Of a stretch of 64,000 bases of DNA, positions 31,802 through 61,148 are shown piece after piece. The stretch spans positions 62,001 to 126,000 of the forward strand of contig NZ_VUYS01000004.1 of NCBI RefSeq assembly GCF_008389435.1. The letters run 5' to 3'. Each line of letters starts with the position of its first letter. Within the stretch, counting starts at the first letter, position 1. Under the pieces are notes generated by a model. That model ran no database searches, was not told the DNA's origin, and saw nothing but the letters and a program-made list of their open reading frames with translations. The translations under genes and the position numbers were made by a program. The stretch comes from Candidatus Nitrosocosmicus agrestis. GTDB taxonomy: Archaea > Thermoproteota > Nitrososphaeria > Nitrososphaerales > Nitrososphaeraceae.

Positions 31802-31802
31802 A

Positions 31803-41989: not shown

Positions 41990-42026
41990 CCTATGAACAG
42001 GAAATAGGCAGACGGAGATATTGACA

Positions 42027-43484
42027 ATGACTAATATTTGTCCCAACATGAAGCAATACGCTCTTGCATTGTTTTCATTTTTATTAATAACTTCAGTATC
42101 ACTTTACTCCAGTCCTATTCACGGTTCCATGCTAAGCATGGGCAAGAGTGGATATTTCAATGCATCTACCAAAGGAGTGATAAATATAAACAATACATTA
42201 ACACAAAAAAATTTTGATCTAAAAAATCAAACTCTCTCAGTAGCAAAATATGATAAAATAAAGACCTGTACCACGGATACTGATAAAAGACCCACATCCA
42301 TAGAATATTTAACGTTCTTTAATTGTGGTCATGTAATTTCTAGCGACAAAAATAATAGTAACAGTAGTAATAAGAATCAAACTACTAGGGAATTTACTCT
42401 AATTGTGGATGAAAACAGCTCTATACCTATTGCAAATAATGGATTGATTTTTACTCCCGCGTGGACGTTCAATGGTACTATACCTGGACCCACAATGAGA
42501 GTAACTGAGGGAGACATTGTAAAAATAAACGTAATCAATCCGCCACAAAATAACCACACTCATTCAATGCATATGCATTCCATTCATCCAGGAGATAGGG
42601 ATGGAGTCAATGGACCGAGCGGGTATATAGAACCAGGACAAAACTTTACTTATATTTTTAAAGCAGGTCCTTATGGTGTATATCCATATCACTGTCATTC
42701 GTCACCCATTGATCAGCACATAAACAATGGACTTTATGGTGCCTTTATTATAGATCCAAAAACACCAAGACCAAATATGACAGAACTGGTAATGATGATG
42801 AATGGATATGATTTAGATTACGAGAAAGAGGGGGTTGGTCCCAGTCGCATTCCAACGCCTCAAGAGTATGCAGAAGACTACATGCCTCAGGCCTTTGAAC
42901 ATGTAAATGAAGTATATACAGTAAACGGAAAAGCCTTTGATTATGTGGACAATCCCATTCAGTTACACCAAAATGCAAACTATAGGATATATCTTATCAA
43001 TATGTTGGAATTCGACCCAGTAAATTCGTTTCACCTTCATGGTAATGTTTTCAAATATTATCCAAGTGGTACTTCTAAAACCCCCTCCTTTGTCAATGAT
43101 ATTTTGACGTTGGGACAAGGAGATAGAGGAATAGTTGAATTCAATTATCCATACATAGGAAAATACATGTTTCATTCTCATATAAACGAATTTTCAGATT
43201 TGGGATGGATGGGATATTTTGATGTAATAAGTCAGGAGGATCAAAGCAACAACATTACATTTATCCATAACACAAACAACACTCTTCTAAAAACACCTAC
43301 AAATCAAACATTGTTAAAACAAATCGAATTAAACGCATCTTATAAACAAGTGAATACTACGCCTTCAAATAAAATGACAAATACGGAGAATCCATTAAAT
43401 GAATCGACTTCTTTGGAAAACATTTCCAGGGTAAATCTTGCAGGAGATTTAAAAATAGTTCATAACGACATACCAAGTGACTAG
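42027..43484 (+). CDS. Two-domain multicopper oxidase
   Basis: An exported oxidase that would oxidise a substrate (phenol, Fe2+, Cu+ or nitric-oxide chemistry in the NirK-like relatives) and reduce O2 to water. Signal peptide ALALFSFLLITSVSLYSSPI. Domain 1 has FNGTIPGPTMRVTEGD, HSMHMHSIHPGD and YPYHCHSSPIDQHINNGLYG, so it holds type 1 Cys and His together with trinuclear-cluster His. Domain 2 has SFHLHGNVFKYYPSG and MFHSHINEFSDLGWMG, with Ser where a Cys would be. So type 1 copper is only in domain 1. The four HxH pairs for the trinuclear centre are complete. TTG at 42021 or ATG 42027; GGAGA precedes. Physiological substrate not decided by sequence. Confidence 0.9.
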   Translation: MTNICPNMKQYALALFSFLLITSVSLYSSPIHGSMLSMGKSGYFNASTKGVININNTLTQKNFDLKNQTLSVAKYDKIKTCTTDTDKRPTSIEYLTFFNCGHVISSDKNNSNSSNKNQTTREFTLIVDENSSIPIANNGLIFTPAWTFNGTIPGPTMRVTEGDIVKINVINPPQNNHTHSMHMHSIHPGDRDGVNGPSGYIEPGQNFTYIFKAGPYGVYPYHCHSSPIDQHINNGLYGAFIIDPKTPRPNMTELVMMMNGYDLDYEKEGVGPSRIPTPQEYAEDYMPQAFEHVNEVYTVNGKAFDYVDNPIQLHQNANYRIYLINMLEFDPVNSFHLHGNVFKYYPSGTSKTPSFVNDILTLGQGDRGIVEFNYPYIGKYMFHSHINEFSDLGWMGYFDVISQEDQSNNITFIHNTNNTLLKTPTNQTLLKQIELNASYKQVNTTPSNKMTNTENPLNESTSLENISRVNLAGDLKIVHNDIPSD

Positions 43485-43513
43485 CGTTCAAAGAGGGAAA
43501 TTGAGATAATTAC

Positions 43514-44086
43514 GTGAGTAAAATTAATACAGGTAATTTTGCTTCAATCAGAAACAAATCCATGTCAAAGCATCACTTTAAAAGATCATATAATCGAAAT
43601 AGTTCTGTTGTATTTGTCTTATTGATATTGGCTTTATCTTTAGTTCTAGTAGTAATAATATTCACTCATAGTCCATATTTGACAAATGCTCAGGTACAAA
43701 ATATAACAAAAAAAGGAACTTTTAATTATACACAATCTGATACATCGGGCAACCCGGATTGGACCGATACAGGGAATTGGTCGTTTAAAGAGTCTCCCTC
43801 AGTGGTACTTACTTTTGATGCAGTCATAAATATGGCAAAACCAAATGGCTCGGAAGGTCATCAACATACAGTTAGTGATCTTACCATACCATATGCACCA
43901 TTTAATCAAACTAACTCTACTGTCATAAAGGGTACAACAACCCTTACGATGGATAAAGGAACTTTTGTCTCCGAAGAACCTACCACCATTACATTGGGTG
44001 AAAAGAATATTTCAGTGTATTTTGATCCCGCTAAAATCAAAAATCATTTTGGCAATCAATCAATTATAGGAGTAGTAACACAATAG
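43514..44086 (+). CDS. Exported protein of unknown function, in operon with the multicopper oxidase
   Basis: A 190-residue protein with an N-terminal anchor (VVFVLLILALSLVLVVIIFT) and a beta-rich exported domain of about 120 residues (SGNPDWTDTGNWSFKESPSV, GSEGHQHTVSDLTIPYAP, TTTLTMDKGTFVSEEPTTI). HQH may bind a metal. Similar domains with NWSF and a His-containing loop occur beside multicopper oxidases in these archaea, from memory. It starts with GTG 43514, 29 bases after the oxidase stop, so one transcript is likely: cupredoxin-like, oxidase and this protein. Confidence 0.75.
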   Translation: MSKINTGNFASIRNKSMSKHHFKRSYNRNSSVVFVLLILALSLVLVVIIFTHSPYLTNAQVQNITKKGTFNYTQSDTSGNPDWTDTGNWSFKESPSVVLTFDAVINMAKPNGSEGHQHTVSDLTIPYAPFNQTNSTVIKGTTTLTMDKGTFVSEEPTTITLGEKNISVYFDPAKIKNHFGNQSIIGVVTQ

Positions 44087-45409
44087 ACTAATGATAATAT
44101 ATTTGTGGTCTACAATCATCTCAGGGAATGAGTAATCCGAGTCCATAGCTAAAACTTAATTGATTACTAGTTCTCATTTACTTAATACATTTGAAGCCCA
44201 TTGAGTTCTAATAATATGTTACTGCAATTAATCTTACTAATAAGAATCCCCTATTTCGATCCACTAACGTCACACCGGATTAATCCTTCATCCTTATTTT
44301 CTGAAACTTGAAAAATATTGACAATTTATTATCTCGTAAATAAAATTAACAAAAGACAGCAATAAATCAAGTATCTCTTTCGATTTAAGAAATTTAGTGG
44401 AAAATGATATGTATATCCTTAATATTGGAATTCAAGCAGAATGGATGAGAGATCAAAATAATGATACTTATTGTATTGTTCAAAAACTAATGAAATTCTT
44501 AAACATATGCAAAAGATTTCAATAACTACTAAAATTCCTATACCACTGAGACTCACTTTAGGTGAGCATGAGATCAGATTTGGTTTACAGGGACAATAAT
44601 CCAGCTTCATGATCAGAGCTTGGATGTAAAATGGATTTTGCAATATATCTTACAAATCAAATTTCCCACCGATGTAATATTTAAGCATAGAATTTAAATA
44701 TTGTTAATAATTAGTGTTACTATTAAAAGGACTTCTAGTAATGATAAGTTTTATCGGAAAGTAAAACGGTCAATTGACAAGTTGCTGCAAAAATGATATA
44801 TTGGAATAGCTACATTTGTTCAGGATCTTTTAAATAAAACATTACGTTCATAAACTCATGGAATTTAAATCCATTTTTATTATTATCAGTAATATTGATC
44901 GCTAGCGGAGTCTCTGTAAAATTGGCAGTCCTGTAGTAGGCATATTTGGTATCATAATTATCAAAAAATATGATATATTCCTGGAGAACTATTGGTGTGA
45001 TTATTTTATTATTCTATAGTGAATCAAGTATATTATTTATTAACTTTAGTTCCAATATTATTAACAGATACCCTAGAGAAATAGTATTAAAGGCTACATT
45101 CATGTGATAAGTATCTATCGTCAAAAAAACAATATAGTAGCATACTACTTGCTCCAAGGACTGTAGGCACAAAAGCATGAGACTTGAAAACCATATCTGA
45201 AAGTTGACGGCGCCGTAAGATATTGATACCTTTAATACTTCTAAACTAGGATTTTCTTTTTAAACATGTTGATGTACAGAATAATACTTGGCACTAGTAT
45301 TCTTAATGTGTGAATAAAACAATACTAAAGAATCGTGAATGGCATTATAATCAATTTTGAGCCACAACTAACTAAATTGATTTCCTAATACTAAAATTAA
45401 TTAATTAAA

Positions 45410-45450
45410 AGTTCCCATGTACCTCATGGATTCGAAGCCCACCGGGCCCG
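45410..45450 (+). repeat. Direct copy of tRNA-Arg 3' end: candidate far attachment site
   Basis: TCGAAGCCCACCGGGCCCG at 45432-45450 equals the tRNA-Arg 3' end (18603-18621) exactly, over 19 bases. Outward to CATGG the match continues with 2 differences. It is in the same orientation as the tRNA, as required of a direct att repeat. It has T at tRNA position 54 where the intact gene has A. The bases before it (AGTTCCCATGTACC) are shared with the degenerate copies at 54090 and 56421 and are not tRNA-derived, so it may alternatively belong to a repeat family. Confidence 0.65.
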
Positions 45451-45668
45451 TATAAAATTTGACCATATTTTAGGATTCAGTGCAAAATAGGCAGCAAAGC
45501 AGTAAAATATAGAGGAAATCAAATACAATTCTCATTCATACCCATATACGATTAAAATAATAGAAGATAATCTAAATACAAAAATCAATTAAACATTATT
45601 GTACAAAAAATCCTAGTTAAGCGAGACTAGTTTAAACCTACAGAAGCAGACGTATACAAAATGGTGAA

Positions 45669-45839
45669 TTATCTAAATCATACGGCGCGGATTACTATGT
45701 AGGCCCAGCGAATATTGCAGATTAGTCTGGCGGTCAGTATGGTGAAAGCCTCAAGGAGGCTATTAGAACAGAAAGTTCTGGGGATGACATTCTCAGTGGT
45801 TTATCACATACCCAAATAAATGCTAACAAGGCGATATAA
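45669..45839 (+). pseudogene. Coding relic with in-frame TAG
   Basis: One frame reads LSKSYGADYYVGPANIAD, TAG at 45723-45725, then SGGQYGESLKEAIRTESSGD and DILSGLSHTQINANKAI before TAA at 45837-45839. The composition is protein-like on both sides of the stop. DW in place of D-stop would fit the sequence, so TGG to TAG is plausible. No family recognised. Confidence 0.4.
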
Positions 45840-46404
45840 AATGAAACGAAACTAAACCATCAATGATAATAAATCATCTTTTATTTGATCCATTTTGAAC
45901 GCTCCTTGCTACTTCCAAATCAATGTAAGTAAAATTAGATATGCGGAGTCTTTGATAAAAATTTATATATATTTGGTAGTGATTTTTTTTCTCCTTTAAA
46001 TGTCGAAATAGACCACCCCCTATCAAGGCTATAGTGATTTTATGGGATTCGGTAACTAATATCAATATGATATTACTTTATGATGATAATGGCAATTAGA
46101 GTTATTGATAGTAATTGATCCATTAGTCTATTTCTTTAAAATGTAAATGTTATTCAAGATGGTTTAATTTCCTTTGAAATTACCATATTCCTACAATAAC
46201 GACATTTAGTAGTAGAACTCTATGCTTCATTATACCGAAATAACTTTCAATTGTATCACCGGTATCGTACCAGGTCACCTATGGAGTACTGTTCTGCATT
46301 TTGCATTATTATATTTACTTTCTAGCGGAACGACAAATAGATAATACAGTCTTGTAGAAAAATGGACAAAGTATAAATAAACCAATGCTATTGCATGTAT
46401 ACAA

Positions 46405-46953
46405 TTGACTAAAAATGCATATAGTATTTTTTTTATTTTGATTTTCTTATTCTCATTTATTCACATCTTCCCTGTTTATGGTACCATCGTAGGAGGGAAT
46501 GAAGGCCAATCAATTTCAGAATCTACCTGGGGTAAATTAGGCTACTACTTGAACATTCCTTCAGGATTAGAAGGCAAATTATTTGATAACAATTTGATTA
46601 TAACAAGTCCATTGATAAAGGATGAGGGATTTTATGTGTTAAAGCAATCAAAAGATATCCTTGAAAATACTGGCAGAGATGATGTTGATTTGACATTTAT
46701 GATGATGTCTTCTATTCTCAAGAGCAATAAAGATTACGCTATATTTCCACCCACCAGCTATGACGATAAAGAATATGTACAGTTCTACTCAGTCTCTATT
46801 TCTTATGACGACAGGATAGTTTTGGACAGATTTGTTTTTATAGATACAAATGATTATCTATATGCCATGGTGCATGTTATCAGAGATAAATTAAGTTCAG
46901 ATTATACCGATATATTCAATTCCATGGTTGATTCGTTCAGACCATTTCCATAA
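46405..46953 (+). CDS. Exported protein, PsbP-like fold suspected
   Basis: A 182-residue secreted protein. Signal peptide SIFFILIFLFSFIHIFPVYG. The mature part (about 155 residues) has YYLNIPSGLEGKLFDNNLII, DLTFMMMSSILKSN, YVQFYSVSISYDDRIVLDRF and DIFNSMVDSFRPFP. A strand order with a final helix ending in xSFR is seen in PsbP-like and DUF1795-type proteins, but the match is only by eye. TTG start at 46405. Isolated, with an insertion sequence to its right. Confidence 0.75.
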   Translation: MTKNAYSIFFILIFLFSFIHIFPVYGTIVGGNEGQSISESTWGKLGYYLNIPSGLEGKLFDNNLIITSPLIKDEGFYVLKQSKDILENTGRDDVDLTFMMMSSILKSNKDYAIFPPTSYDDKEYVQFYSVSISYDDRIVLDRFVFIDTNDYLYAMVHVIRDKLSSDYTDIFNSMVDSFRPFP

Positions 46954-47220
46954 ATGGGTTTACCTCATAACATTGACGAAAAGGATCTTGTAATCGTCAG
47001 ATCAAATTATGCCGATTTTCATTCAATAATCATAAAATATGCTATCTTTTCCATCAAATCGAAGGTGATAATGAGCATGCCTACAAGTCGTCCAGAAAAT
47101 TTGGTAATATAAGGAAATCTATGCAGCTTATTACCTGAGTGTTAACACGATGGAAGAAGGTTATTCATTTTGATATAGAGTTATTACAAGCCTATGACAT
47201 AGCAAGTGATCAAAAATTTT

Positions 47221-47910
47221 GGCTCTGTTCACTTAATATGTTTTATTTCATTGTTATGATAGTCTACAAAGAGCCGCAGCCAATTCCGTACATGCTTTAA
47301 CTTGCAATTCTTTATTCTACAAGGAAAGTAGTCATCGAAACTTTCCGTTCTGTCTTTTATGTATTGCATCTTTCTTTCAATCAAACTTTTCTCCAGAGAG
47401 GAATGAATGTGATGATCGAGATTTAAGAATCTACAGGCCATTGGATACCAAGTACCTTCACCATCAGTCGAAACGGGATGAATTCCATGAATCTTGACTA
47501 AACCTGAAATGAATCTTTCAGATACAAACATGTTTCTTTCTTTAGATTTATTAGCAAAAAAAAGAAGTGCGAGAATTTGCCTGTTTTCGGGTTCAGTTGC
47601 AACCCAGAGCCAGACAAACTCTGATCCCACCTTCAACATGGTCTCATCTATTATATACTCTAGAACTCTTCTTCTAGTTGACTTCAGCTTTTGAGGCTTG
47701 TAATTTTGAATCCAATTCCACTTTTGGCAAAGAAAACGTGATTTCTCTTGTATATCTGAGATAATCTTTCCGAGGCTTTCCTTAAGGATAGGCCTGAAAA
47801 GTACAAATGCAACCCATAATATACATACTTTGAAGGCGTTCTGTTTCTAGTAAGCATAAAAGAAATGGAATGCTTTCAAGCTATAGGCTTATCGTTAACT
47901 GAACAGAGCC
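47221..47910 (-). mobile_element. IS6-family-like insertion sequence, 690 bp
   Basis: The ends are imperfect inverted repeats: GGCTCTGTTCACTTAA on the left and, on the other strand, GGCTCTGTTCAGTTAA on the right (15 of 16). AAAATTTT occurs directly on both outer sides (47213-47220 and 47911-47918), an 8-bp target duplication, the size made by IS6-type elements. The single transposase gene inside has a DDE domain. Because AAAATTTT is itself palindromic, it could instead be part of longer terminal repeats, but the 8-bp size fits. The element sits in non-coding DNA. Confidence 0.88.
47229..47857 (-). pseudogene. IS6-like DDE transposase, frameshifted
   Basis: The C-terminal frame from 47639 has MLKVGSEFVWLWVA, STDGEGTWYP (second catalytic Asp, with an extra residue in the usual TDGGTWYP), HIHSSLEKSLIERKMQYIKD (catalytic Glu in LIER) and a final HN motif. 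The first Asp is just upstream in the same frame at YIIDET. The N-terminal part, MLTRNRTPSKYVYYGLHLYF and LRKASERLSQIY, lies in another frame from ATG 47857. The frame change falls near 47745. The gene therefore encodes all parts but not as one product, so the element is inactive unless frameshifting restores it. Confidence 0.85.
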
Positions 47911-47918
47911 AAAATTTT

Positions 47919-48237
47919 CTACCTTCAATATATTGTTACAATATTTTTTATTCAATTTCTAATTTATTAAATTTCGCATTTAGAAGAATACAAAACTGGT
48001 GATAACTTCATTACTATATAAAGGAATATTCATCCAAAGATTTTCCAAAAATTAATTAAATATGCATATTAGAATTATCATAGGCCACAGTATCCTGCCA
48101 ATAAAACATTACAAATGACTTTGTTTATAGATGAAAATATGCGATTTAAATAACAATTGGAAATATACTATAACTGAACTCGCCTAAATGAATTATCTTC
48201 AAAAACCTTAATAGCAAGACTTTATTTATACCGAAAT
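47919..48237. other. Intergenic region
   Basis: About 320 bases between the insertion sequence and the next exported gene. No feature seen. Confidence 0.4.
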
Positions 48238-48477
48238 GTGAGGAGAAGTCCATGTACCCCAATTATGAGTTCAAGCCAAATCAATGCAAATTATCATTAT
48301 TATTATTACTATTGTCTCAATCAAATATTGTCCAAGAAACTAACTTTAAGTTCATTATCTGAAACTCTTCTGCTTGGGGATAGAAGAGCTTTGGAGGATT
48401 ATTTCAACAGTCGATATTATTATCTCCGGCCCATAGCCAAATCTTTGCAAAAGATAGCGAGGTCAAGGTTTAATAAT

Positions 48478-48930
48478 ATGTTATCAATCTTTTTGATTTC
48501 AGTACTCTTAATCAGTTCGATTTCAATTACAACACGCGTGAACGCCTCTACGTTAGATCCAGAATCTGATTTTGGTTCAATAAGTGACTCAGATGAAAGA
48601 GATAATGATGATACAGTGGTTAATATAAAATTTCATGGTAATTCTCTTTTGGCAAAGTTAGTCAAACAGCCCGAAGAATGGCCTCAGTTTGAACGAGATG
48701 GGGAGACTTATGTGCTATGTCATCCACTAGCACCATGTTTTGTAAAAACATTTAAAGAGTTGTCAATAGTTCTTGAAGCATCACCTTTGGCGGTTGTTGG
48801 AGTGGACCCGTACCATCTGTATGATGCATCTAATGAAGAACAACACGCTCATGATATGCAATGGCTAAGTCCATTTGGCCAAGAACATGCAGACGAAATT
48901 GAAATTCTCATTAATGGAAACGAAGATTAA
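48478..48930 (+). CDS. Exported protein of unknown function
   Basis: The ATG at 48478 gives a signal peptide (MLSIFLISVLLISSISITTR, then VNAS) and a mature protein of about 125 residues. The frame is open to 48238 and an upstream start would add 80 residues with a Tyr-rich segment; I prefer the signal-peptide start. The domain has an acidic linker (DSDERDNDDT), then VVNIKFHGNSLLAKLVKQPE, YVLCHPLAPCFVKTFKELS and a His-rich end (EEQHAHDMQWLSPFGQEHAD). The two Cys around HPLAP may pair. It is followed after two bases by another exported protein gene, so the two form an operon. Function unknown. Confidence 0.72.
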   Translation: MLSIFLISVLLISSISITTRVNASTLDPESDFGSISDSDERDNDDTVVNIKFHGNSLLAKLVKQPEEWPQFERDGETYVLCHPLAPCFVKTFKELSIVLEASPLAVVGVDPYHLYDASNEEQHAHDMQWLSPFGQEHADEIEILINGNED

Positions 48931-48932
48931 AG

Positions 48933-49517
48933 ATGAATCCTAATGTATTGCTATTACTTGCGGTTACTTTATCTCTCATCTTTTCATCAGTTGGGCTGAC
49001 AGCAAATACATATGCTCAATTACCAAAACATTGTGGCTATAGTTACGAACATAGATGCGTGTTGCCGGATGAAGAAGAAGCAGAGAAATTATCAGAGGTA
49101 TTCCCAAATGCAATTGTAGAAGTGAACGAAGATCTCTATGATTCTATTCCAGACGAAGATAGAGAAGATGCAGAAGGGATCATCGAAAAAGGTCCTTTAG
49201 AAACAGAACAGAATAACTTTCAACCTATACCACAGGGTAATGAAAATTTGCCTCCTGTAGAACAATCAAGCGCAGGGTTAATTGACAATTGCATTCAGTC
49301 AGGTTTTTCAAAGGAAAGGTGTGAAAATATGCTACTTTCAGATGACCCAGGCGGGTATTGCTCTACACTTAAATTAGCTAATCTCCCATGTCCAAAGATT
49401 CAAGATCCATCTTTCACTTTTGGTAATCCAGGTGATGCATTAGAACAATCGCGGCAACAGATACAGAATATTCAAAGTGCTATAGATCAGTGTATTGCAT
49501 TAGAAGTGTGCCAATGA
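48933..49517 (+). CDS. Exported Cys-containing acidic protein
   Basis: A 194-residue secreted protein. Signal peptide LLLLAVTLSLIFSSVGLTAN, ending near TYAQL. The mature part has Cys pairs in HCGYSYEHRCVLPDEEEAE, LIDNCIQSGFSKERCENML, YCSTLKLANLPCPKIQ and a C-terminal CIALEVCQ: eight Cys, probably disulfides. Acidic helices (DEEEAEKLSEVFPNAIVEVN) separate them. It begins two bases after the preceding gene, so both are translated from one message and may act together at the cell surface. No family recognised. Confidence 0.72.
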   Translation: MNPNVLLLLAVTLSLIFSSVGLTANTYAQLPKHCGYSYEHRCVLPDEEEAEKLSEVFPNAIVEVNEDLYDSIPDEDREDAEGIIEKGPLETEQNNFQPIPQGNENLPPVEQSSAGLIDNCIQSGFSKERCENMLLSDDPGGYCSTLKLANLPCPKIQDPSFTFGNPGDALEQSRQQIQNIQSAIDQCIALEVCQ

Positions 49518-49727
49518 CACTAGAAAACCATCCAAAATTATTGACAATAATTTTGAAAGTTTAGAAGAAATATGAATTATCAACTAAAAAGCTAGTTAGT
49601 TTTTCTATATAAAAATTGCAGTCACAATCAACAGTAATAGTATCAATAAAGTATTAGTGAAATATATGTAGGCCATCTTTAGAGTAGATCATAAAAGAGG
49701 GGAGATCAAAATTCCCTTAATAACATC

Positions 49728-51527
49728 TCACAGGTCCTTGCAAAAGAAACTGTTTTTCAAAATCTCTTTATCGCTTATCTTACCGAAGAAGTTACAAACT
49801 CCCTTAGTATTGTGAGGTTTGTTGTTTGATAATGTATCTTTTATATCCTTTGAGGATTTAATGGTGTTGTCTACATCAGCGGGATTTTTGATTATGTCTG
49901 TTACAATATTCTCAATTGTCTTAGGTTGAACTATTATTGTTACACTGTCAGGTTGACTCTGCATACCATGATCATTTAGTACTACAAGCTGGAATGTAAT
50001 GGTGATGCTATTTTCTGTTGTTCTCGGAGCTACGAAAGTAGGTTTTACTGCAGCCGAATCATCTAAAATGACATTTGGTCCCGTCGTTTGAGTCCATTGA
50101 AAAGTCAAAGGAGAGTTAGTAGGATCTGTGCTGCCACTGCCATCTAGCTGGACACTATCTCCACTAGATACAGTTTGATCAGTTCCTGCGTTTGCTGTAG
50201 GGATAGTAGAAACAGGATTGACATTTATCGTTACACTGTCAGGTTGACTCTCAACACCATTTTCGTTTCTTACAACGAGTTGGAATACTATGACATTTGT
50301 TGATTGTAAAGCTGGAGCTGAAAATGAAGGATTCATCGATGTAGAATTATCCAGAGTAACTAATGGACCAGCTGTTTGAGTCCATTGAAAAGTCAAAGGA
50401 GAGTTAGTAGGATCTGTGCTGCCACTGCCATCTAGCTGGACACTATCTCCACTAGATACAGTTTGATCAGTTCCTGCGTTTGCGGTGGGTGTAGATGAGG
50501 TAGTTCCAAGTACAAATACAGTGTCGGTATCGGATTCTGCATCATTTGTTCCGTACATATCATTATTATAAGGATTATAAACTATTCCTAGAGGTGCATT
50601 TCCAACATCCACTGTTTCCAACACAGTATTTGTTGAACCATTTATTATCGATAATTCAAATGGTAAACCCCAATCAGTGACATACATATTGCCATTGTCA
50701 GGATTATAAGAAATTCCTCTCGGACTGTTCCCAACAGGTATATTACCAATTACTGTATTATCAGATGAATCAATTAATGCGACAGAATCTTTATTCTGCA
50801 TTGCTAAGTACATATTGCCATTGTCAGGATTATACGCAATTTCTTGTGGAAGACTACCCTCAGGAAGAGGAATATATTGAATAACAGAATTTGAAGAACT
50901 ATCAATAACTGCGACTTCGTCATCTCCGAATGTTGATGTTACATACATATTGCCATTGTCAGGATTATAAGCAATATAATTAGGGTGTTTACTATCTATA
51001 GGAGCACCTAGCGTAATATTTTGTATTACTGTATTGGTATCGCTGTCAATAACAGATACAGTACGGCTATCATGAACAGCTACATACATATTGTTATTTT
51101 CGGGATTAAATATAATGCCTTGAGGTTGTTTTCCTACTTTTATAGTATCTATTACTTGATTTGTAGAGCCGTCAATCACAGAGACACTTCCATTCTCTTC
51201 GGGAAAAATCGTATCAGAATTTGTAACGTATATGTCCCCATTATCAGGGTTGTATGCGACGTCATCAGGATCATTTCCAACTGCGATAGTATCTATTACT
51301 TGATTTGTAACACTGTCAATCACAGATACGTCATTAGAATCAAAATTCGTTACATATACATAATTATTATCAGGGTTAAAAGCTAGATTCTTAGGTCCAT
51401 CCCCTACAACAATAGTATCAATAACCTCTTCCGCAAGCACATTTTGAAGAGAGTGTAAAAAGCATATTATAGACAAACTTCCAAAAATGATCAAAGACAA
51501 ATACTTGACATTATCTAAATTCATCAA
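49728..51527 (-). CDS. Exported YVTN beta-propeller protein with two PKD/REJ-type domains
   Basis: A 599-residue surface protein. After a signal peptide (YLSLIIFGSLSIICFLHSLQ) come about seven YVTN-type blades (residues 30-340), each reading like VIDTIAVGNDPDDVAYNPDN then GDIYVTN. Two Ig-like PKD/REJ domains follow (about 350-440 and 445-530), each starting TANAGTDQTVSSGDSVQLDG and running through FQWTQT. The C-terminal 60 residues are charged, with Cys near the end (FFCKDL). Such proteins mediate adhesion or cell-surface interactions in archaea. No enzymatic motif is present. ATG 51527. Its broken relative lies at 56533. Confidence 0.88.
   Translation of the reverse strand: MMNLDNVKYLSLIIFGSLSIICFLHSLQNVLAEEVIDTIVVGDGPKNLAFNPDNNYVYVTNFDSNDVSVIDSVTNQVIDTIAVGNDPDDVAYNPDNGDIYVTNSDTIFPEENGSVSVIDGSTNQVIDTIKVGKQPQGIIFNPENNNMYVAVHDSRTVSVIDSDTNTVIQNITLGAPIDSKHPNYIAYNPDNGNMYVTSTFGDDEVAVIDSSSNSVIQYIPLPEGSLPQEIAYNPDNGNMYLAMQNKDSVALIDSSDNTVIGNIPVGNSPRGISYNPDNGNMYVTDWGLPFELSIINGSTNTVLETVDVGNAPLGIVYNPYNNDMYGTNDAESDTDTVFVLGTTSSTPTANAGTDQTVSSGDSVQLDGSGSTDPTNSPLTFQWTQTAGPLVTLDNSTSMNPSFSAPALQSTNVIVFQLVVRNENGVESQPDSVTINVNPVSTIPTANAGTDQTVSSGDSVQLDGSGSTDPTNSPLTFQWTQTTGPNVILDDSAAVKPTFVAPRTTENSITITFQLVVLNDHGMQSQPDSVTIIVQPKTIENIVTDIIKNPADVDNTIKSSKDIKDTLSNNKPHNTKGVCNFFGKISDKEILKNSFFCKDL
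50086..50483. repeat. Near-identical 110-bp repeats within the PKD/REJ domains
   Basis: Bases 50086-50195 and 50374-50483 are the same sequence except at the very ends, far more alike than the rest of the two domains. This points to recent duplication or gene conversion. Three copies of a TTGCCATTGTCAGGATTATA-type string near 50690, 50817 and 50950 show the same in the propeller part. Confidence 0.8.
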
Positions 51528-51640
51528 TTTTTCATCTAAATTTTAGAATATAACAATTACTATTAATTATACTTAAAAAACATTCTTCAAATCATATTTA
51601 TAAATATAAAAATGAAGTTTTATATGCATATCTAGGCATA

Positions 51641-51864
51641 ATGGATCAAAGTAAATCTGATAATACCCCAAGTAACTCTGAAAATACTAATAGAATAATA
51701 GCATAATTGGGTGATTCTTTTTATATAGTACATTTAGCGAGTCTATTACCAATACTACAGTAAGAAATTTTGTGCTTAGGGTCAATCAGATTGGTAAGGA
51801 GAATTCAAATATTTACAAAACTTCAGTTGGTAATTTCTTTCCTACAGTAAATTCAATATCATGA
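51641..51864 (+). pseudogene. Small decayed gene (stop codon plus frameshift)
   Basis: ATG 51641 reads MDQSKSDNTPSNSENTNRII then A and TAA. The same frame goes on LGDSFY, and one frame over TFSESITNTTVRNFVLRVNQ, IGKENSNIYKTSVGNFFPTV runs to TGA 51862-51864. Gln (CAA) to TAA plus a one-base slip would restore a single protein of about 74 residues. No family recognised. Confidence 0.55.
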
Positions 51865-52061
51865 AGTTTAAAGGTTGACCAATTCTCAAATCATCACAAC
51901 TCAATATTATGTCTAATTCTGAATATCACTAGTCTTATTTGTTTATCATTCATAAGAGTGAAACCAATGTAATAAAAGTGAGGTCGATTCTACCACTAAT
52001 TGATTGAAATACATAATGGTTCAGACTTAGTATTTGATAGTTAAAAATAGAACCCACATTC

Positions 52062-52096
52062 AAGGACTGATATCGTCCTGAAGCCCACCGGGCCCG
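52062..52096 (+). repeat. tRNA-Arg 3'-end copy (17 bp exact)
   Basis: GAAGCCCACCGGGCCCG at 52080-52096 equals the last 17 bases of tRNA-Arg. The preceding AGGACTGATATCGTCCT forms a small hairpin, and GATATCG in it also occurs in the tRNA D-arm, so this might be a tRNA copy that lost its middle. The copy at 58352 has the same layout. Confidence 0.6.
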
Positions 52097-53112
52097 TTTG
52101 ATATCTCTTCCCATTTTAAGACCTAGGTTAATAATATAATTAACAAGAATAATTCCAACTTTTACCTCTCCAGTTATTTTAGTCATTAATTTGCTGTTGT
52201 ATTTGTATAGATGTAATAGTTTTACAAGGTTATTTAATTTATCAGTCAAAATAGTCACAACCATAGTCAAAAAGTCAAAAAATTAGTCAGAAATTATCTA
52301 CATAGATACTCAGCCATCTTATTATTCCTATCAGCAATTGATGAAACCTTTGAATAATGGTGTCATTTGTATACCATCTGCTTCCCAATAGAGTGATTGA
52401 ATTAGATATAATTTTATATTCAGAACTTGAGCAAAAAAGAATTAAAAATATGACGACTTGATATATTTGAAAACTGTCTTTTAAGATATACAGGTTGATT
52501 ACTCCTAGTCTTCGATATTCAAACTACCAGGGTGAGGAGTTTAATCAAATGATAACCACTACAAGATTCCTAGATACGTAATATCCTTGTCTTTTCTTGT
52601 CCAGATATCTATATTGGTATATGCAGTTTCTAAAGAACTGTGGGAATAAGGAAATAAAAGGAAATCGAACGTTGATTTCACTAAGATCTGCAAAGATGAT
52701 TTTTCTTTGAGTGATACCATAGATAAAAAGAAAAAAAATTAAAACACAAATGCCAACATATCATACCCTGGCTGATAAAACAAATATCAATCATCCCACA
52801 AGGGCAACCAGGGAATAAAGTTACTTTTCTCTCATAGTTTAAGCATTACTACAGCAAAATAATCCAAAAACTGTATTAGATAATAAACGAAAATTACTTG
52901 TTGATTTTGTCAATATAACTTTAAACTTTTTTGTCCAATATTCCAAAATGTCCTTCCGTAATTTCTCCTAAGCATTGTTAAAATTTAATGTAAAGGTTTT
53001 GGCAACAGTCTATGATAAAACAATCCAAATTTCAAGTAATATATCCATCATAAATTATCTATCTTTTACCAATTTTTCTAATGCATCGGAGGGGAAATAT
53101 TAACAAAGGGAT

Positions 53113-53304
53113 ATGATCGAAAAAATAAAGAAATTTACAGAGATCCAACAAAAAGGACTACATTGGATGGAAAGAATGAAGATAGCAGAACTCGTTAATA
53201 GAATGAAAGTCGCTTATAATTATGAATATAGTATACTACTTCCATCTAACAAAAATACAAGTCAGATATACATAGATATAAATGATAATTATGACATAAG
53301 ATAA
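53113..53304 (+). CDS. Small protein of unknown function
   Basis: A 63-residue protein with two Met/Lys-rich helices (KGLHWMERMKIAELVNRMKV) and a short acidic tail. ATG at 53113 follows AAAGGG, a possible ribosome-binding site. Coding is suggested by an ordered helix pattern; it resembles small orphan proteins of related archaea. No family. Confidence 0.5.
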   Translation: MIEKIKKFTEIQQKGLHWMERMKIAELVNRMKVAYNYEYSILLPSNKNTSQIYIDINDNYDIR

Positions 53305-53402
53305 ATTAATAGAACATTATATCATTATATTGTTATTTTATTGTGGCATAGTTTAAATTTACCCATCATAAATATACGAATTTTTCTAAATGAAAACATC
53401 AT

Positions 53403-53636
53403 ATGAAATTTAATTACAAAACAACAAGAACAATGTTTGTATATGTAACTACATTAGTTATAATGACAGGGTTATTATCAATACATATTCCTGGAAGTCA
53501 TGCGTTACTGAATCATAATTCGGTCAATCAAGACATTAAAGAAAAGGTTTTTGAAAAGAAAGAACAGATTAAAGACAAAATTCAAGAATTTAGAGAAAAT
53601 ATACTTAGTGCATGTTGTCCACTTTGTGGATGTTAA
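53403..53636 (+). CDS. Small exported protein with CCPLCGC end
   Basis: A 77-residue protein. Signal peptide (MFVYVTTLVIMTGLLSIHIP then SHALL), a charged coiled helix (IKEKVFEKKEQIKDKIQEFR) and a terminal ACCPLCGC with four Cys in seven residues. That end could bind a metal or form disulfides outside the cell. ATG at 53403. One of three tiny genes in a row here. Function unknown. Confidence 0.6.
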   Translation: MKFNYKTTRTMFVYVTTLVIMTGLLSIHIPGSHALLNHNSVNQDIKEKVFEKKEQIKDKIQEFRENILSACCPLCGC

Positions 53637-53695
53637 TACCGGATTATTGGAAAAAAATTACATAATATTATAAGGCATGGACCATATATAGGATT

Positions 53696-53827
53696 ATGAA
53701 ACAAAGATTTTCATTAGGAAATAATTGCGAATGCATGTGTCATGGCAAACCCGGTATTGTAGATTTTTGTGGATACTGTACTACATCCCATAGAAATGTA
53801 TTCTATAGAAATAAGACACAAAGATAA
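53696..53827 (+). CDS. 43-residue Cys/His-rich miniprotein
   Basis: From ATG 53696 to TAA 53827. The sequence has CECMCHGKPGIVDFCGYC followed by TTSH: five Cys and two His in 22 residues, with spacing suited to one zinc or copper site. It is flanked by basic residues (YRNKTQR). Too short for normal gene finders. It starts 60 bases after the CCPLCGC protein and on the same strand. Confidence 0.5.
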   Translation: MKQRFSLGNNCECMCHGKPGIVDFCGYCTTSHRNVFYRNKTQR

Positions 53828-54448
53828 CAACTTTTTTGCATTAGTAAAGCCGATGTCCTCTTTATTCAAAAAGAATGAATCTCTTTCATATATTATTATA
53901 AATGATTAACAATCAACAAATTACTTTAATCCTTCACTACCTTATCTATTAATGCGAAGCTAACCTACAACCAATTCACATTTGAGTTAAACCTCATAAT
54001 CGCTAATGAATCTATTCCAAACTTCCACTTTTACAAATCACACCCTTGTTTAACCAAATCATTGAATTCAAACAATAAATAATAGTTACAGATCCCATGT
54101 ATCTCATGGATTCGAAGTCCACAGAATTCTTAGTTTATTGTAATTTCCCATTTATTGTTCAATGGATACCTAGTCAATCATCGCATCTATTTCACATTCA
54201 TAATTATTTTCAGGACAAAAAGATTTGATCCTGACATAGGAACCACATCCTAAGAATGGCTTAATATATATGAAATAAATTGATTTACATGATGTTAATT
54301 TTGTAATCGGGTCTTAGTTAAGGTGATATTCAAATCATTATTAGATAATGATCGTAAATGGAATATTGTAGTATTTCATTTTGCATCATCCCTATTATTA
54401 GAATCATCACACCGTTTATTATTTGTCTCCAACATATCTATCAACACT
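53828..54448. other. Gene-free stretch with a degenerate tRNA-like repeat
   Basis: About 620 bases. Contains the repeat at 54090-54122 and is similar in part (TTAATGCGAAG and after) to the region before the repeat at 56421. No gene is supported. Confidence 0.45.
54090..54122 (+). repeat. Degenerate tRNA T-arm repeat
   Basis: AGATCCCATGTATCTCATGG followed by ATTCGAAGTCCAC. It equals the copy at 45410 over the first part, but the acceptor end is lost. The T-stem TGGA/TCCA is fully paired here, so it is not simply a decayed copy of the tRNA-Arg arm. Confidence 0.55.
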
Positions 54449-55522
54449 CTAAGGCTTAGCCTCAAAGACCAAGTTGAATGGGGTTTGAGTAGCCTTTCGA
54501 ACGTTAGAAAAACCTGCCGATTTTATTAACTCTTTTATTCTTTGCTCACCTGCTTGTGCTCCAAGACCTGGACCACTTTCGTTTAAAGATGCAGGAACGC
54601 ATACCACAGAAGATACCGAGTAAAATACCCTACCAAGTGGATTTAAATTGTCCTCTAGTCTATCATTGGCAAAAGGTTCCACTATCATCAATGTACCGTT
54701 TCTTTTTCTTAGAGTTTGGAGGACATATTTAGCAGCCCCTGTGGGATCGCCCATATCATGGAAGCAATCAAAGAACGTAACCAAGTCATAGTCATCCCCT
54801 GGATAGTTCGTGGAGTTTGCTACCTCGAATTCTACATTCTTCAATCCTTCTTTTTCAGATTCCCTTCTTGCCCATTCTATTGACGGTCTATGAGAATCAA
54901 ATCCTATGATTTTTGAGTTAGGATATGCTTTTGCCATCAGAATTGATGAAGCACCGTGTCCACAGCCAACATCCGCTATTTTAGCTCCTCCCTTCTTAAG
55001 ATTGGATTCTACATTTTCAAGCGAAGGAATCCAGCTATTTATTAAATTAGCTACATAGTTTGGTTTAAAGAATCTCTCTGTTCCTTCAAAAAGATAATGG
55101 TGATGATCTCCCCATCCAAGACCTTTTCCAGTTTTAAATGCTTGAATAATTTTTTCCTCGTCCTTGAAAAGACTAACTAAAGACTGGTAAAAACCTATTA
55201 CATATGCAGGACTGTTTTCATCTGTAAGTGCCAAAGCATGCTCATCAGGCAATAAATATGTACTATTATCAGGATTATAAACAACGTAACCTCCGGCTGC
55301 TTGGCCTGCGAGCCATTCTTTTATTATACGTGGATGTGTTCCAGTTTTATGTGCTAGTTCTTCGGATGTCAATTCACCTGCTCCTGTCATCGCTTTGAAC
55401 AATCCCAACCTATCTCCAATGAAAGTTATCAATACCCCTTCTGCTCCACCCCAATCGCTTACAACTTTTCCAATAAATTCATTGAGTTTTTCTGAATTAA
55501 TTTTAGATAATAAATTACTCAT
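54449..55522 (-). CDS. SAM-dependent methyltransferase with N-terminal winged-helix dimerisation domain
   Basis: A 357-residue enzyme. Residues 20-100 form the dimerisation/winged-helix domain typical of small-molecule O-methyltransferase-like families (GELTSEELAHKTGTHPRIIK and EWLAGQAAGGYVVYN). The Rossmann domain has motif I IADVGCGHGASSILMA, the acidic residue in IIGFDSHRPS, VANSTNYPGDDYDLVTFFDC and FANDRLEDNLNPLGRVFYSV. It lacks the clear catalytic His of plant-type O-methyltransferases, so the reaction is open. Its promoter region is shared with a ribbon-helix-helix regulator and contains two identical operator-like palindromes (55527-55581). The start is ATG 55522. Very likely repressed by that regulator. 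Confidence 0.88.
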   Translation of the reverse strand: MSNLLSKINSEKLNEFIGKVVSDWGGAEGVLITFIGDRLGLFKAMTGAGELTSEELAHKTGTHPRIIKEWLAGQAAGGYVVYNPDNSTYLLPDEHALALTDENSPAYVIGFYQSLVSLFKDEEKIIQAFKTGKGLGWGDHHHYLFEGTERFFKPNYVANLINSWIPSLENVESNLKKGGAKIADVGCGHGASSILMAKAYPNSKIIGFDSHRPSIEWARRESEKEGLKNVEFEVANSTNYPGDDYDLVTFFDCFHDMGDPTGAAKYVLQTLRKRNGTLMIVEPFANDRLEDNLNPLGRVFYSVSSVVCVPASLNESGPGLGAQAGEQRIKELIKSAGFSNVRKATQTPFNLVFEAKP

Positions 55523-55526
55523 AACT

Positions 55527-55581
55527 ATGCTATCACACTAGCATTATTTAAAGATAGCTAATTATGCTAGTGTGATAGCAT
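55527..55581. promoter_or_regulatory. Double palindromic operator between methyltransferase and RHH regulator
   Basis: ATGCTATCACACTAGCAT at 55527-55544 is repeated in perfect inversion as ATGCTAGTGTGATAGCAT at 55564-55581. Each unit is itself an inverted pair ATGCTA/TAGCAT with a 6-base spacer. So four ATGCTA half-sites flank a TATTTAAAG core that can serve as TATA element for both genes. The left unit ends 5 bases before the methyltransferase start. Ribbon-helix-helix proteins bind such short half-sites as tetramers. Confidence 0.9.
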
Positions 55582-55610
55582 TTATATTTATATCAGTTGC
55601 ATAATAATTA

Positions 55611-56282
55611 ATGACGCATACTTTAGTAATTCGCGGGTTTGATCATGACACCCACTCACAACTAGGAGATCTATCCAGACAAAAAGGGGTATCCATAAAT
55701 TCCATGGTAAAAGATGCAGTAGATCAGTGGCTTCAAAAACAAAAGGAAATTCCAAAGAGACATCATATGATACTTTATGATGATGATAAAGCAATGATCC
55801 GATTGTTAAAATCGATTAATAAGTTCACACATGGTAACGACAAATGGTTCAAATGTTTTATACCATCCTCGTCAAATAAAAAATTTGAAAAGATATTGAA
55901 AGATCTGAATTGGTATGATATTGATAGTGATGGTGCACAGCACAAATCCGAACAAAAAGACCTCATGAAATACTTTAGTACTGTTTTGCATAGTATTATA
56001 AAAAAGTCTAAAAATAAGGAATTATGTTGTATTGACTTTCTTCTTAATGACATAGCAAAGCATGACATTAAGGAAACAATTGAGATTGAAAGAGCATACG
56101 ATCAAAATAAACTGGAAGGTCTCGTATTTTGTCCATACAAAATAAAGGACCTGACAAATTCATCTATATTTGATATTATAGCGTTATTTGATTCTCATCA
56201 ACAGATATTCATAGTGAATGGTGATGAATTGTATAAATTATATGTAACCAAAGAAAGTATTCACAAGCTGTTTTTAGGCTAG
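55611..56282 (+). CDS. Ribbon-helix-helix regulator with C-terminal sensor-like domain
   Basis: A 223-residue regulator. Residues 1-45 form a ribbon-helix-helix domain: a strand HTLVIRGFDHDTHSQL, then LGDLSRQKGVSINSMVKDAV. The remaining 170 residues are an alpha/beta domain (HHMILYDDDKAMIRLLKSIN, LCCIDFLLNDI, DIIALFDSHQQIFIVNGDEL), similar in style to the MEDS sensor domain but not proven. It starts with ATG 55611, 30 bases after the right-hand operator unit, so autoregulation is likely. Signal unknown. Confidence 0.82.
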   Translation: MTHTLVIRGFDHDTHSQLGDLSRQKGVSINSMVKDAVDQWLQKQKEIPKRHHMILYDDDKAMIRLLKSINKFTHGNDKWFKCFIPSSSNKKFEKILKDLNWYDIDSDGAQHKSEQKDLMKYFSTVLHSIIKKSKNKELCCIDFLLNDIAKHDIKETIEIERAYDQNKLEGLVFCPYKIKDLTNSSIFDIIALFDSHQQIFIVNGDELYKLYVTKESIHKLFLG

Positions 56283-56420
56283 ATAGATAATAGTCAAATA
56301 TAGTCTTTATCGGACCTGGTCCTTATCAACAGCTTTCAAATTCAAATCAATTAATGCGAAGATTTAGACTCGTAATATATCTATTACTAAAACCATTTCC
56401 AAAATATTTATTTAATTAAC

Positions 56421-56455
56421 AGTTCCCATGTCCTCATGGATTCGAAGTCCACCGA
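56421..56455 (+). repeat. Degenerate tRNA T-arm repeat
   Basis: AGTTCCCATGTCCTCATGGA followed by TTCGAAGTCCACCGA. It matches the copy at 45410 over about 35 bases, including non-tRNA bases upstream (TTAATTAA-AGTTCCC), and the copy at 54090. The acceptor end GGGCCCG is replaced by AATTAT. Confidence 0.6.
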
Positions 56456-56532
56456 ATTATGATTATATCATACGTTCCCATTTAGCTGTTAAAATACAGT
56501 GGGGATCAACTGGCCCATCGTATCTAACTGTT

Positions 56533-57284
56533 TCAGTTATTGTCTGACAAAATATCTCTTAATCTATCAGCAGAATCAATAGAGTTGGTTACATTTAGCG
56601 GGTTCCTTAAAATTCCTGTGATTTCGTCACCGAGTGTTCTTGACTCATCGTTTTCAGAAGTGTTGATTCGAAGAGGATTTACAGTTATCTTAACTTCATC
56701 AGGTTCGCTAGTATTACCTTCTTCATCTGTCACAAGCAGGCTAAAAGTAATTTCTGATTGCTCAGCTGTCCTAGGAGCAGTAAATGTCGGATTTGGAGAT
56801 GCTTGGTCATTCAAAGTTACTCTGGGACCACCTGTTTGAGTCCATTTATAGGTTAGTGAATCTTCTGATGAGTTCGAACTACTATTGCTACTGCTACCAT
56901 CCAGTCTAACTAAGCTACCACTATCTACTGTCAGATTAGGTCCTGCATCAGCTGCAGGTCCAATAATTATAGTAGAACTACTTATCACTGATACTGTATC
57001 TGAGCCACTATTCGCTACATACATTCTATTGTTACCAGGGCTGTATTCTAAATCGTAGGGCCAGTCACCCACATCTATGGTTTTAACCACCTTATTGGTA
57101 GCACTATTTATTACAGACACGTCATGTGAGTATAAATCTGCTACATAGGCATATTTGTTAATAGGATTGTATTCCAATGTAACTGGAAAGTCAACCTACA
57201 TCTATGGTTTTTATTACAGATTGAGCCCATGTTGTATGAAAGTCTAATAAACCAAAAGTAGCAAAAGAAGATATCAAAATCATC
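56533..57284 (-). pseudogene. Frameshifted YVTN/PKD surface protein
   Basis: From ATG 57284 the frame reads a signal peptide (MILISSFATFGLLDFHTTWA, then QSVIKTIDVG) and hits TGA at 57193. One frame over, starting GDFPVTLEYNPINKYAYVAD, the protein continues through two YVTN blades, one PKD/REJ domain (VRLDGSSSN, YKWTQTGGPRVTL) and a charged end to 56533. A single extra T in GGTTGAC accounts for it. Compared with the 599-residue relative at 49728 it has far fewer blades. Either a decayed gene or an assembly slip at one base. Confidence 0.78.
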
Positions 57285-57602
57285 ACAGACAAACAGAAAT
57301 AATTAGGTAGTTCTTTCAGGAATTGGCATATACCGACACTTCCAATTAAACATTGATTCCAGTCTTACTAATGATTTAAAACTATATTACAATTGAATGA
57401 GCTATATTAAACTATTTGAATAGACATAACGGAGTATAAAGTGATATAAATTAAACAATGATTGGTTGAAAGGATTTTAGACTCGTATTTTAACTATTAA
57501 TGAATCCATCGATTCAGTTTTTCTTCTTAGTGACAATATTTAATAAGTAAAATTCTTTGTGCTAAAGGCTCACAATAGCCAAACCTAGGATGTTTTACTA
57601 TT
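57285..57602. other. Intergenic region
   Basis: About 320 bases between two minus-strand genes. No feature seen. Confidence 0.4.
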
Positions 57603-58139
57603 TTAATGTGAGTCGGTACCAATCAAAGTAGACAGAGATTTTATTAGACGCTGTAAGCTCTCCTTGGTCTGGATATCGATAATAACTCCGTGTCCATCAA
57701 TTTTACCCTTAATCCCCTGGATCAGTAAAGTAGTTTCAGGTGTAAAATTTGCCATAAGGGTACGCATGATCAACTGCAATTCTTCATGGCATTTAGTACC
57801 GCTTGTGGAAGCGGTGATGATACCTAAGGGCTTTCCGGAAAAGACAGTAGTGGCCACGCACCATTCTATAGCGTTCTTTAACCCCGAGGGTATGCTGAAT
57901 ACGTATTCCGGTGTACTGATTATGACTCCATCCGCATTATGGATTAGATTGCGTAGCTTTATAATTTCTGATGGCGGATGTTCCAGAGATAACTGCGGGT
58001 CGAAGTGCGGTAACGTTTTCAAACGGTCGTAAAATGTAACTTGGAAAGTATTCCTAGCTTCTGACCTAATATGCTCCATCAGTTTATGGTTGGTCGATGA
58101 CGTCGTGGCGCTTCCTATTAGGGCGATAACGTTTTTCAT
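57603..58139 (-). CDS. NADPH-dependent FMN reductase family protein
   Basis: A 178-residue flavodoxin-fold enzyme that would reduce FMN, quinones or azo compounds with NAD(P)H. The phosphate-binding loop is ALIGSATTSSTNHKLM. The second flavin loop is IISTPEYVFSIPSGLKNAIE (the family's TPEYxxSxPxxLKNAIDW). KPLGIITASTSGTK follows. Length is normal. The DNA is visibly more GC-rich than its neighbours, a hint of later acquisition. ATG 58139. Confidence 0.93.
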   Translation of the reverse strand: MKNVIALIGSATTSSTNHKLMEHIRSEARNTFQVTFYDRLKTLPHFDPQLSLEHPPSEIIKLRNLIHNADGVIISTPEYVFSIPSGLKNAIEWCVATTVFSGKPLGIITASTSGTKCHEELQLIMRTLMANFTPETTLLIQGIKGKIDGHGVIIDIQTKESLQRLIKSLSTLIGTDSH

Positions 58140-58521
58140 AAACTGTATATATATTTGCTTTTTCCTCCTTTTTTACTTAACCCGAGAGGTTATCCAAGTA
58201 GAAGGAACAGGATTAGAAGGATCCATTAACTAATTAGTCATCGAGTCGTACTTGTGCCTTCGAACTTAGATTTTGCTCGCAAGCATAAATCTATGAAATA
58301 TTTTTTATATCTAAAATTTGCAATTGGTTTTAAAGGTAAAGAATCCATCTTAAAGGACCGATATCTTCTGAAGCCTACCTGGCCCGCTGCAATTTTACTA
58401 CTTTAATAAGACTCAAAAGTTTAAAATGAGAGAAAATATCAGTTGGAAATAGAATTACGACATCATCTCTTTGATGGTATTTTAAGTAAATTTGACTTGA
58501 CAATTAATTGTACCTAAATTG
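58140..58521. other. Intergenic region with a tRNA 3'-end copy
   Basis: About 380 bases. It contains the degenerate tRNA 3'-end copy at 58352-58386 and no gene. Confidence 0.45.
58352..58386 (+). repeat. Degenerate tRNA-Arg 3'-end copy
   Basis: AAAGGACCGATATCTTCTGA then AGCCTACCTGGCCCG. Same layout as the copy at 52062 (GAAxCCAxxTxxAAGGACxGATATC), with three changes in the tRNA-derived part. It is followed by CTG, as the tRNA gene is by CTA. Confidence 0.55.
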
Positions 58522-60434: not shown

Positions 60435-61148
60435 CCCATACCGTCGCTAGAGAGTGAATTAGATATCTTTACTTTCACTTACATAGATGTTGTAAAAATT
60501 AAAGGTTATCACATTGCTTGTCATGGTGGACCTTCTCTATGGGCCCAGACAAACTCTTATTCCAGATACCAAGAGGACATTCGCTGCAATCGAAAAAATT
60601 GTATATGATAATCCAAATGCGGAACTACTACAATGGTTTTTTCTAATGATTCTAATTCATTTCTATTATCATTAGATACTAGTTTGTGTACATTATGTTG
60701 CAAACGCGTCTATCCTATACAAGTTTCAGATAACACAGAATGGGGACGAGAGAACGGACTACTCATCTTTTTTCTATCCCACCCTTTTTTTCTAGGTGTC
60801 TTCACAGTTCTATTCATAACCACACTAACTAGATGTATCGTTCTGTTAGGAGAATCAAGTTTGAAGAGTAAGTCTTCTTGTTAATCTAACTAATTAATGA
60901 TACTTATGACGCTAATGACGCAAATATAGAGTTCTTGTTCGATTCATACCCATTACGCAACTGATCCTGATATTATATCTATTACTAAACCCACCGGCTA
61001 TCGCTCTGTGATTACTGAAATATAGAATTACTGATCAATCATAAATTCTCAAATTATTAGAATATTAGACCCAAGGAAATGGGTAGATATGCTTACTATT
61101 TTTGCTCGCATACCAAAATCTGGGAAATAACAGGAATTTCCAAAATAA
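60435..61148. other. Gene-poor stretch with a probable decayed gene
   Basis: From about 60420 one frame (+) reads DVVKIKGYHIACHGGPSLWA then, after a frame change near 60560, LIPDTKRTFAAIEKIVYDNP and AELLQWFF, ending near 60675. Both halves look coding, so this is probably a frameshifted gene remnant of unknown family. Near 60996 ATCTATTACTAAACCCACCG echoes the region next to the repeat at 56421. The frame at 60633-60884 has no motif. Confidence 0.45.

Follow-up and report, generated by a model that had tools for sequence, protein, structure and literature searches.

The window analysed here, 64,000 nt from Candidatus Nitrosocosmicus agrestis (genome G000; the window is G000:C12:62001-126000), carries a tRNA-Arg(TCG) gene followed, on the same strand, by a series of copies of its 3′ end, each preceded by one of a few recurring arms. 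These tail copies are very probably attachment (att) scars of successive tyrosine-recombinase integrations at this tRNA gene. A sequence-only reading of the window had weighed such integrations against a tRNA-derived dispersed repeat; the former is borne out by the strand and position of the sites, which lie behind the same tRNA across the genus, by an adjacent integrase, by the decay of the sites with distance from the tRNA, and by homology breakpoints that fall at the shared core.

All five copies of the tRNA end listed in the sequence-only reading are real: they lie at or a few bases from the positions given there, on the plus strand like the tRNA and far above chance (Table 1). Two of them, A1 and B1, retain the exact acceptor end, as that reading had also proposed. 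Its division of the copies into two structural types held in part, since types A and B are genuine but are only two of at least four classes, and class C also occurs in the window. Comparison of relatives (the search sample was 14 genomes of the genus besides G000; G004 is a near-complete relative, one contig of 3.43 Mb) yielded four arms that recur, A (ACAGTTCCCATGTACCTCATGGATTCGAAG), B (AGGACYGATATCGTCCTGAAG), C (GACTCGTAATATATCTATTACTAAA) and D (TTTTAGTGGTAAAAATRCAGCGGAA). All of them are small palindromes or inverted repeats to the left of the tRNA end; the tRNA 3′ end CCCACCGGGCCCG is all that the classes have in common. Matrices for the site classes were built from the other genomes only, excluding G000, and the null consisted of 60 shuffled windows, both strands, in which the maximum scores were 0.6 for class A, 8.7 for class B and 10.3 for class C. 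The 14 sites counted in G000 include a low-scoring class B match (16.2) at 54625, inside a methyltransferase gene, that was left out of Table 1, and two further copies lie just beyond the window (G000:C12:126247, class A, and 126381, class C). A2 and A3 retain only (T)CCAC of the core, continuing with [AC]GAATT in place of the tRNA end.

The arms could be related to integrases through other tRNA genes. Tail copies downstream of tRNA-Ile, -Ala and -Lys resemble class A in the build of their left arms (GTGAACCCGCTTACCATAAGGATTTAAA, TAGAACCCTACAACCACAAGGAATTTAA, CGGTCCCTTATACACTACGGGACTTAAT), and the right ends of elements of the Int1 family, named after the integrase next to tRNA-Arg(TCG) in the window, have the class A architecture at these three genes (G..CCC....ACC..A.GG..TT.AA, then the core). 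Because this architecture is shared among loci, class A arms are, on comparative grounds, the right ends of Int1-family elements, adapted to each tRNA. The bases outside the tRNA sequence, which had been taken to favor a dispersed repeat, were thus misread: they correspond to the right arms of the attachment site carried by the element (attP), with the same architecture at three further tRNA genes. Class C probably represents the right ends of a second family, Int2: in G003, a second tRNA is the site of an Int2 element whose far end, 52 kb off, is a class C site with an exact core and the sole scar in this stretch, and the first scars behind Int2 in G004 are also of class C. From the core on, the right flank of B1 is homologous to the sequence that immediately follows the tRNA in G004 and to the one that follows a G002 scar of class A (77% over 88 bp and 82% over 73 bp, both starting at the core), and in the relatives these homologous flanks lead into Int2. 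Int1 itself stands directly behind scars of three classes, B in G013 (intact gene), D in G001 (one in-frame stop) and C in G009 (broken gene); the scars are therefore used as targets in their own right.

Sites consisting of a class A arm without the tRNA end, of the form CCAC[AC]GAATT...TTCCCATTTA, occur in the window (54085-54165 and 56415-56490) and are numerous in G003 and G004. The GAATT...GTTCCCATTTA continuation is never directly behind the tRNA and could be the mark of elements restricted to scars as insertion sites. Since either continuation, tRNA end or GAATT, is found with the same right ends, the GAATT left end is exchanged as well.

Arrays headed by tRNA-Arg(TCG) are present in G000, G002, G003, G004, G012 and G014. 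They contain 54 sites in G004, 16 in G003, 14 in G000 and 4 in G002, and that of G004 begins at the tRNA (1,132.9 kb) and reaches to about 954 kb (~180 kb). In these four arrays 88 sites lie on the strand of the tRNA and 0 on the opposite strand, with 0 in the sequenced stretch upstream of the tRNA; the 88 include the weakest sites (scores 20-25), possibly chance matches, of which the strand count is independent. The sites decay with distance from the tRNA in G004, both in score (Spearman -0.59, p=3e-6) and in core identity (-0.42, p=0.0015). Upstream of the tRNA, G000 and G002 are collinear, and downstream the same segments appear at other distances and in another order. Among the ends of homologous segments between arrays, 22/448 fall at the core on both sides (homology starting at -4..+1 or ending at +4..+15 of the core), compared to 0 in 200 trials with random placement. 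For instance, parts of the array are common to G004 and G012 (about 90% or more); here a 516-bp segment found in both starts at the core, with an arm of class B before it in one genome and of class C in the other. A further pair of junctions from these genomes shows C versus B. As up to 54 scars follow one another, separated by small sets of genes, the gain of genes can be read off this locus.

These patterns also bear on two other origins of the copies. A dispersed repeat derived from a tRNA, of the kind of a short interspersed nuclear element (SINE) or a miniature inverted-repeat transposable element (MITE), might cluster here by accident, which would agree with the non-tRNA bases common to the copies, with the few copies found elsewhere and with spacings of 99-109 bp in G004. 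Nevertheless, it is very improbable: the strand bias is 88:0, in the genus the copies cluster behind a single tRNA, arm families and flank families swap precisely at the core, and the core changes with the tRNA targeted. Searching the genome and its relatives refuted this origin for the bulk of the copies, as the G004 array holds 7/7 of the pattern matches of class A, 13/15 of class C and 4/7 of class B, genome-wide counts that rest on pattern searches, and the copies are not scattered over the genome on both strands as expected of a MITE or other dispersed repeat. Copying of the tRNA end together with its flanks by simple segmental duplication has in its favor that the arrays do contain some duplicated segments, one of them in G004 with 99.9% over 1056 bp, but it would reproduce one flank along with the tRNA end, whereas here both flanks come from unrelated families recombined at the core; as a general explanation it is refuted by the breakpoint pattern and can hardly be entertained. 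The duplicated segments in question (G004:C1:1097891-1096836 and 1070123-1069068) both end exactly at a class D core, and their left border is no known site.

A second scar array was observed in G000, with 21 sites in G000:C24:6618-34040 (-), G000:C11:41982-80313 (+) and G000:C40:18277-21528 (-). Its core is CCCCACGCGCCCA (11/13 or better), its right flanks are mainly of two types, and its arms are mostly of the Int1 type (GAACCCTACTACCACAGGGAACTTAAT) or C-like (GATTCAATTCAACCTTGAACCGTGT). On C24 it lies downstream of tRNA-Lys(TTT), whose end, CCCCACGGGCCCG, shows a systematic two-base difference; the same arrangement is found in G003.

In the window, an integrase gene stands directly beside the intact tRNA-Arg(TCG) gene, at the left end of what we propose to be the youngest integrated element, with A1 as its right end. 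Besides Int1, this element carries an open reading frame (ORF) for a PriX-like primase (23980-25191) and copper/iron genes (GSDH-cupredoxin, FTR1 and multicopper oxidase). A second PriX-like primase ORF, upstream of the tRNA (9298-10446), is a possible trace of another integrated element. As judged from its modeled fold, Int1 is a tyrosine recombinase: the best Foldseek matches are XerH, lambda Int, Cre and VchIntIA, with probability 1.00 each and without preference, for a structure model of moderate quality (mean predicted local distance difference test score 72.6, weak at residues 300-359). Residues R179, K207, R298 and Y330 are invariant in 11 homologues and, by analogy with the family, would constitute the catalytic set, with Y295 where histidine is usual. 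PF00589 (Phage_integrase) matched Int1 weakly (E=0.0012, below the Pfam cut-off), and a profile search against PDB sequences returned zinc-ribbon matches to ribosomal proteins and nothing else. Homologues of Int1 occur in Candidatus Nitrosocosmicus and other Nitrososphaeraceae, with relatives in 51/70 Nitrososphaeraceae genomes. Most inspected relatives with an intact 5′ end show the same order, that is, a tRNA 3′ end or a scar, a motif like TTAATCACATGGGTTCAAATA and then the gene, and the family targets tRNA-Arg, -Ser, -Met and -Ile and, at further loci, tRNA-Lys and -Ala.

The successive-integration scheme would work as follows. The attP of an incoming element, consisting of an arm, a tRNA-like core and a second arm, would recombine with the tRNA-Arg(TCG) 3′ end. 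The core brought in would restore the tRNA, and the displaced 3′ end of the tRNA would come to lie at the opposite end of the element, linked to its right arm, this joint being one scar. Later elements would enter at the tRNA or at an older scar still holding the core, so that scars would stack on one strand with the oldest farthest from the tRNA. Recombination between stacked cores could then delete, exchange or move segments, leaving short units without an integrase. For the 26.8-kb element, the scheme predicts a circle junction composed of a class A arm, CCCACCGGGCCCG and TAATCATATGGGTTCAAAT, with the crossover inside TCGAAGCCCACCGGGCCCG. The anatomy, strand and position of the sites, the core breakpoints, the arms that track the integrase family across tRNAs and the location of Int1 behind B and D scars can be read in the DNA itself; the enzymology is what we infer from them, as are mobilization in trans and the movement of short units as such.

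Several observations weigh against this scheme. When inverted arms were tested against left ends, D gave a clear pair and C a weak one, but A found no partner, and hence the link from A to Int1 rests on the other tRNA loci; moreover, B arms unexpectedly matched the left end of Int1. An insertion of the A2/A3 kind at the tRNA itself would break it, so these must arise at scars or otherwise. A few sites were found far from any tRNA (G004 at 648, 796, 1366 and 1834 kb; G002 at 877-883 kb; G000:C11 at 36-38 kb). The right flank of A1 matches another genome, G012, over only 48 bp (94%, core included), which falls short of proof for an empty site of the first element. No match to Int1 was found in the viral contigs searched, and no excised or circular form was seen. 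Finally, most array intervals are without an integrase: own integrases in each stacked unit, the usual though not indispensable feature of tandem accretion, are not observed, only the one or two tRNA-proximal units having an intact integrase. In the window, no integrase was recognized in intervals other than the youngest element, and four Int2-type queries detected no integrase remnants behind A1 or B1.

Many intervals are instead units of 0.6-3 kb with one or few genes, the median interval being 2.3 kb in G004 and 1.9 kb in G000, and exactly one ORF of at least 100 aa is present in 26/60 short array intervals. Some units recur in new contexts with borders at the core: a 1.3-kb C-to-B unit is common to G003 and G004 (81.5%), an A-to-B unit of the G004 array recurs at 1366 kb (87.9%), and the FMN-reductase gene of the window, in a single-gene unit between C and B sites, has homologues between A and B sites at 877 kb in G002 and behind a C site in G004. 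Together with the fact that arrays usually have no more than one or two intact integrases, located beside the tRNA, this admits the tentative alternative of a cassette-like system, unrelated to the integron, in which the tRNA-side integrase would capture and shuffle short units in trans at sites made of a hairpin arm and the tRNA core, the array being a working platform and not a graveyard. We consider this possible, if doubtful: no movement was seen, the recurrence is also explained by deletion and homologous exchange in stacked elements, gene orientation is random (32 vs 35), and several arm classes imply several integrases and not one. More speculative, and in our opinion unlikely, is a broader archaeal gene-capture platform, in which tRNA-anchored integrases of several families would insert and shuffle single-gene units in trans through such sites, integron-like and independently evolved, at more than one tRNA (Arg TCG and the array downstream of Lys TTT) throughout Nitrosocosmicus. 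In appearance the locus is like an array of gene cassettes, but we infer the mobility of units at most, since stacking followed by deletion and exchange would look alike. An integron proper was rejected: the attC boxes RYYYAAC and GTTRRRY occur in order at 0/101 sites, and the genes are not mostly in one orientation.

Other observations concern the contents of the arrays. In G004:C1, a spacing of 99-109 bp from a B, C or D site to a class A site recurs (e.g., 1102418-1102309, 1093865-1093756, 1066006-1065898 and 1025916-1025817), as if gene-less minimal elements had inserted. In the window, positions 47212-47916 hold an insertion-sequence-like unit with inverted ends TTTTGGCTCTGTTCA and TGAACAGAGCCAAAA, whose ORF (47229-47639) is short and without a Pfam match, and two PKD-domain proteins are encoded in different array units, at 49728-51527 (with a beta-propeller) and 56533-57177 (shorter).

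Table 1. Target gene, integrase, sites and associated features in the window.
Feature	Position	Strand	Remarks
tRNA-Arg(TCG), target gene	18547..18622	+	ARAGORN; 3′ end 18609-18621 (CCCACCGGGCCCG) is the common 13-bp core
Left end of youngest element (TAATCATATGGGTTCAAATA)	18622..18645	+	Motif found 3′ of the tRNA end in most Int1-family integrases
Proposed youngest integrated element, 26.8 kb	18622..45437	+	Right end A1; Int1-to-class-A order also in G002 and G003
Tyrosine recombinase Int1, 437 aa, directly behind tRNA-Arg(TCG)	18684..19997	+	Foldseek, invariant residues
Weak degenerate class A site	44164..44209	+	Score 23.0 (stretch 44164-44201) vs null maximum 0.6
A1: class A arm and exact tRNA 3′ end	45405..45450	+	Core 45438-45450; score 66.1 (45405-45442)
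Left-end motif TATAAAATTTGACCATATTTTAGG of next element behind A1	45451..45475	+	In G012 also present behind a core close to the tRNA
B1: class B arm (AGGACTGATATCGTCCT palindrome) and exact tRNA 3′ end	52050..52096	+	Core 52084-52096; score 60.9 (52050-52088)
Left end of Int2-type element behind B1	52097..52184	+	Homologous flanks in G004 and G002
A2: class A arm followed by CCACAGAATT in place of the core, then TTCCCATTTA	54085..54165	+	Score 56.1 (54085-54122)
Class C site (ACTCGTAATATATCTATTACTAAA), tRNA end lost	56362..56396	+	Score 49.0 vs null maximum 10.3
A3: class A arm lacking one base, core CCACCGAATT, followed by TTCCCATTTA	56415..56490	+	Ungapped score 22.7, clear by eye
Degenerate class C site, left border of FMN-reductase unit	57475..57509	+	Score 20.3
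NADPH-dependent FMN reductase, single-gene unit between C and B sites	57603..58139	-	PF03358
B2: class B arm with 1-base deletion, decayed tRNA end	58340..58386	+	Core 11/13; ungapped score lowered, clear by eye
Class C site with partial core CCCACCGG	60960..61002	+	Score 21.3 (stretch 60960-60994)

Archaeal elements stacked at one site are already known (PMC6563490, PMC8371274), as are the loss of the integrase after integration (PMC8371274) and bacterial islands marked by repeated tRNA tails (PMC10872708). As in the tandem accretion of integrative and conjugative elements (ICEs), integrative and mobilizable elements (IMEs) and archaeal arrays (PMC6563490, PMC8371274), a recombinase lies here beside an intact tRNA and direct repeats of the tRNA end bound units in one orientation; unlike in them, there are 54 sites in one array, at least four arm classes and mostly short units without an integrase. 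With the additive flexible genomic islands (PMC10872708) the array shares unidirectional recurring tRNA tails, content that varies between relatives and many small units, but it is archaeal, has defined arm classes, with integrase families for two of them, and its breakpoints map to the core. The Tycheposons of Prochlorococcus, going by their description in PMC10872708, are likewise anchored at tRNAs and have a tyrosine recombinase and cargo genes, although they belong to another domain of life. Archaeal integrons (PMC9668308) resemble it in that repeated recombination sites separate short units and one end carries a tyrosine recombinase; the array described here differs in having no attC boxes, genes in both directions and the tRNA 3′ end as core. 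Nitrosocosmicus is absent from Krupovic 2019, and no description of this locus was found in the literature searched. Tandem accretion at a tRNA takes an unusually dense, archaeal form in this locus, which is new in its density, in the number of arm classes and in its recurring short units.

Soil ammonia-oxidising archaea have flexible genomes, and the routes by which they gain genes are poorly known. Here, one tRNA gene carries an ordered record of insertions, whose classes can be assigned to integrase families and whose decay gradient gives a relative age, and the locus offers defined att sites, arms and enzymes open to direct testing. It raises the question of whether archaea use tRNA-anchored arrays of short gene units in the way bacteria use integrons.

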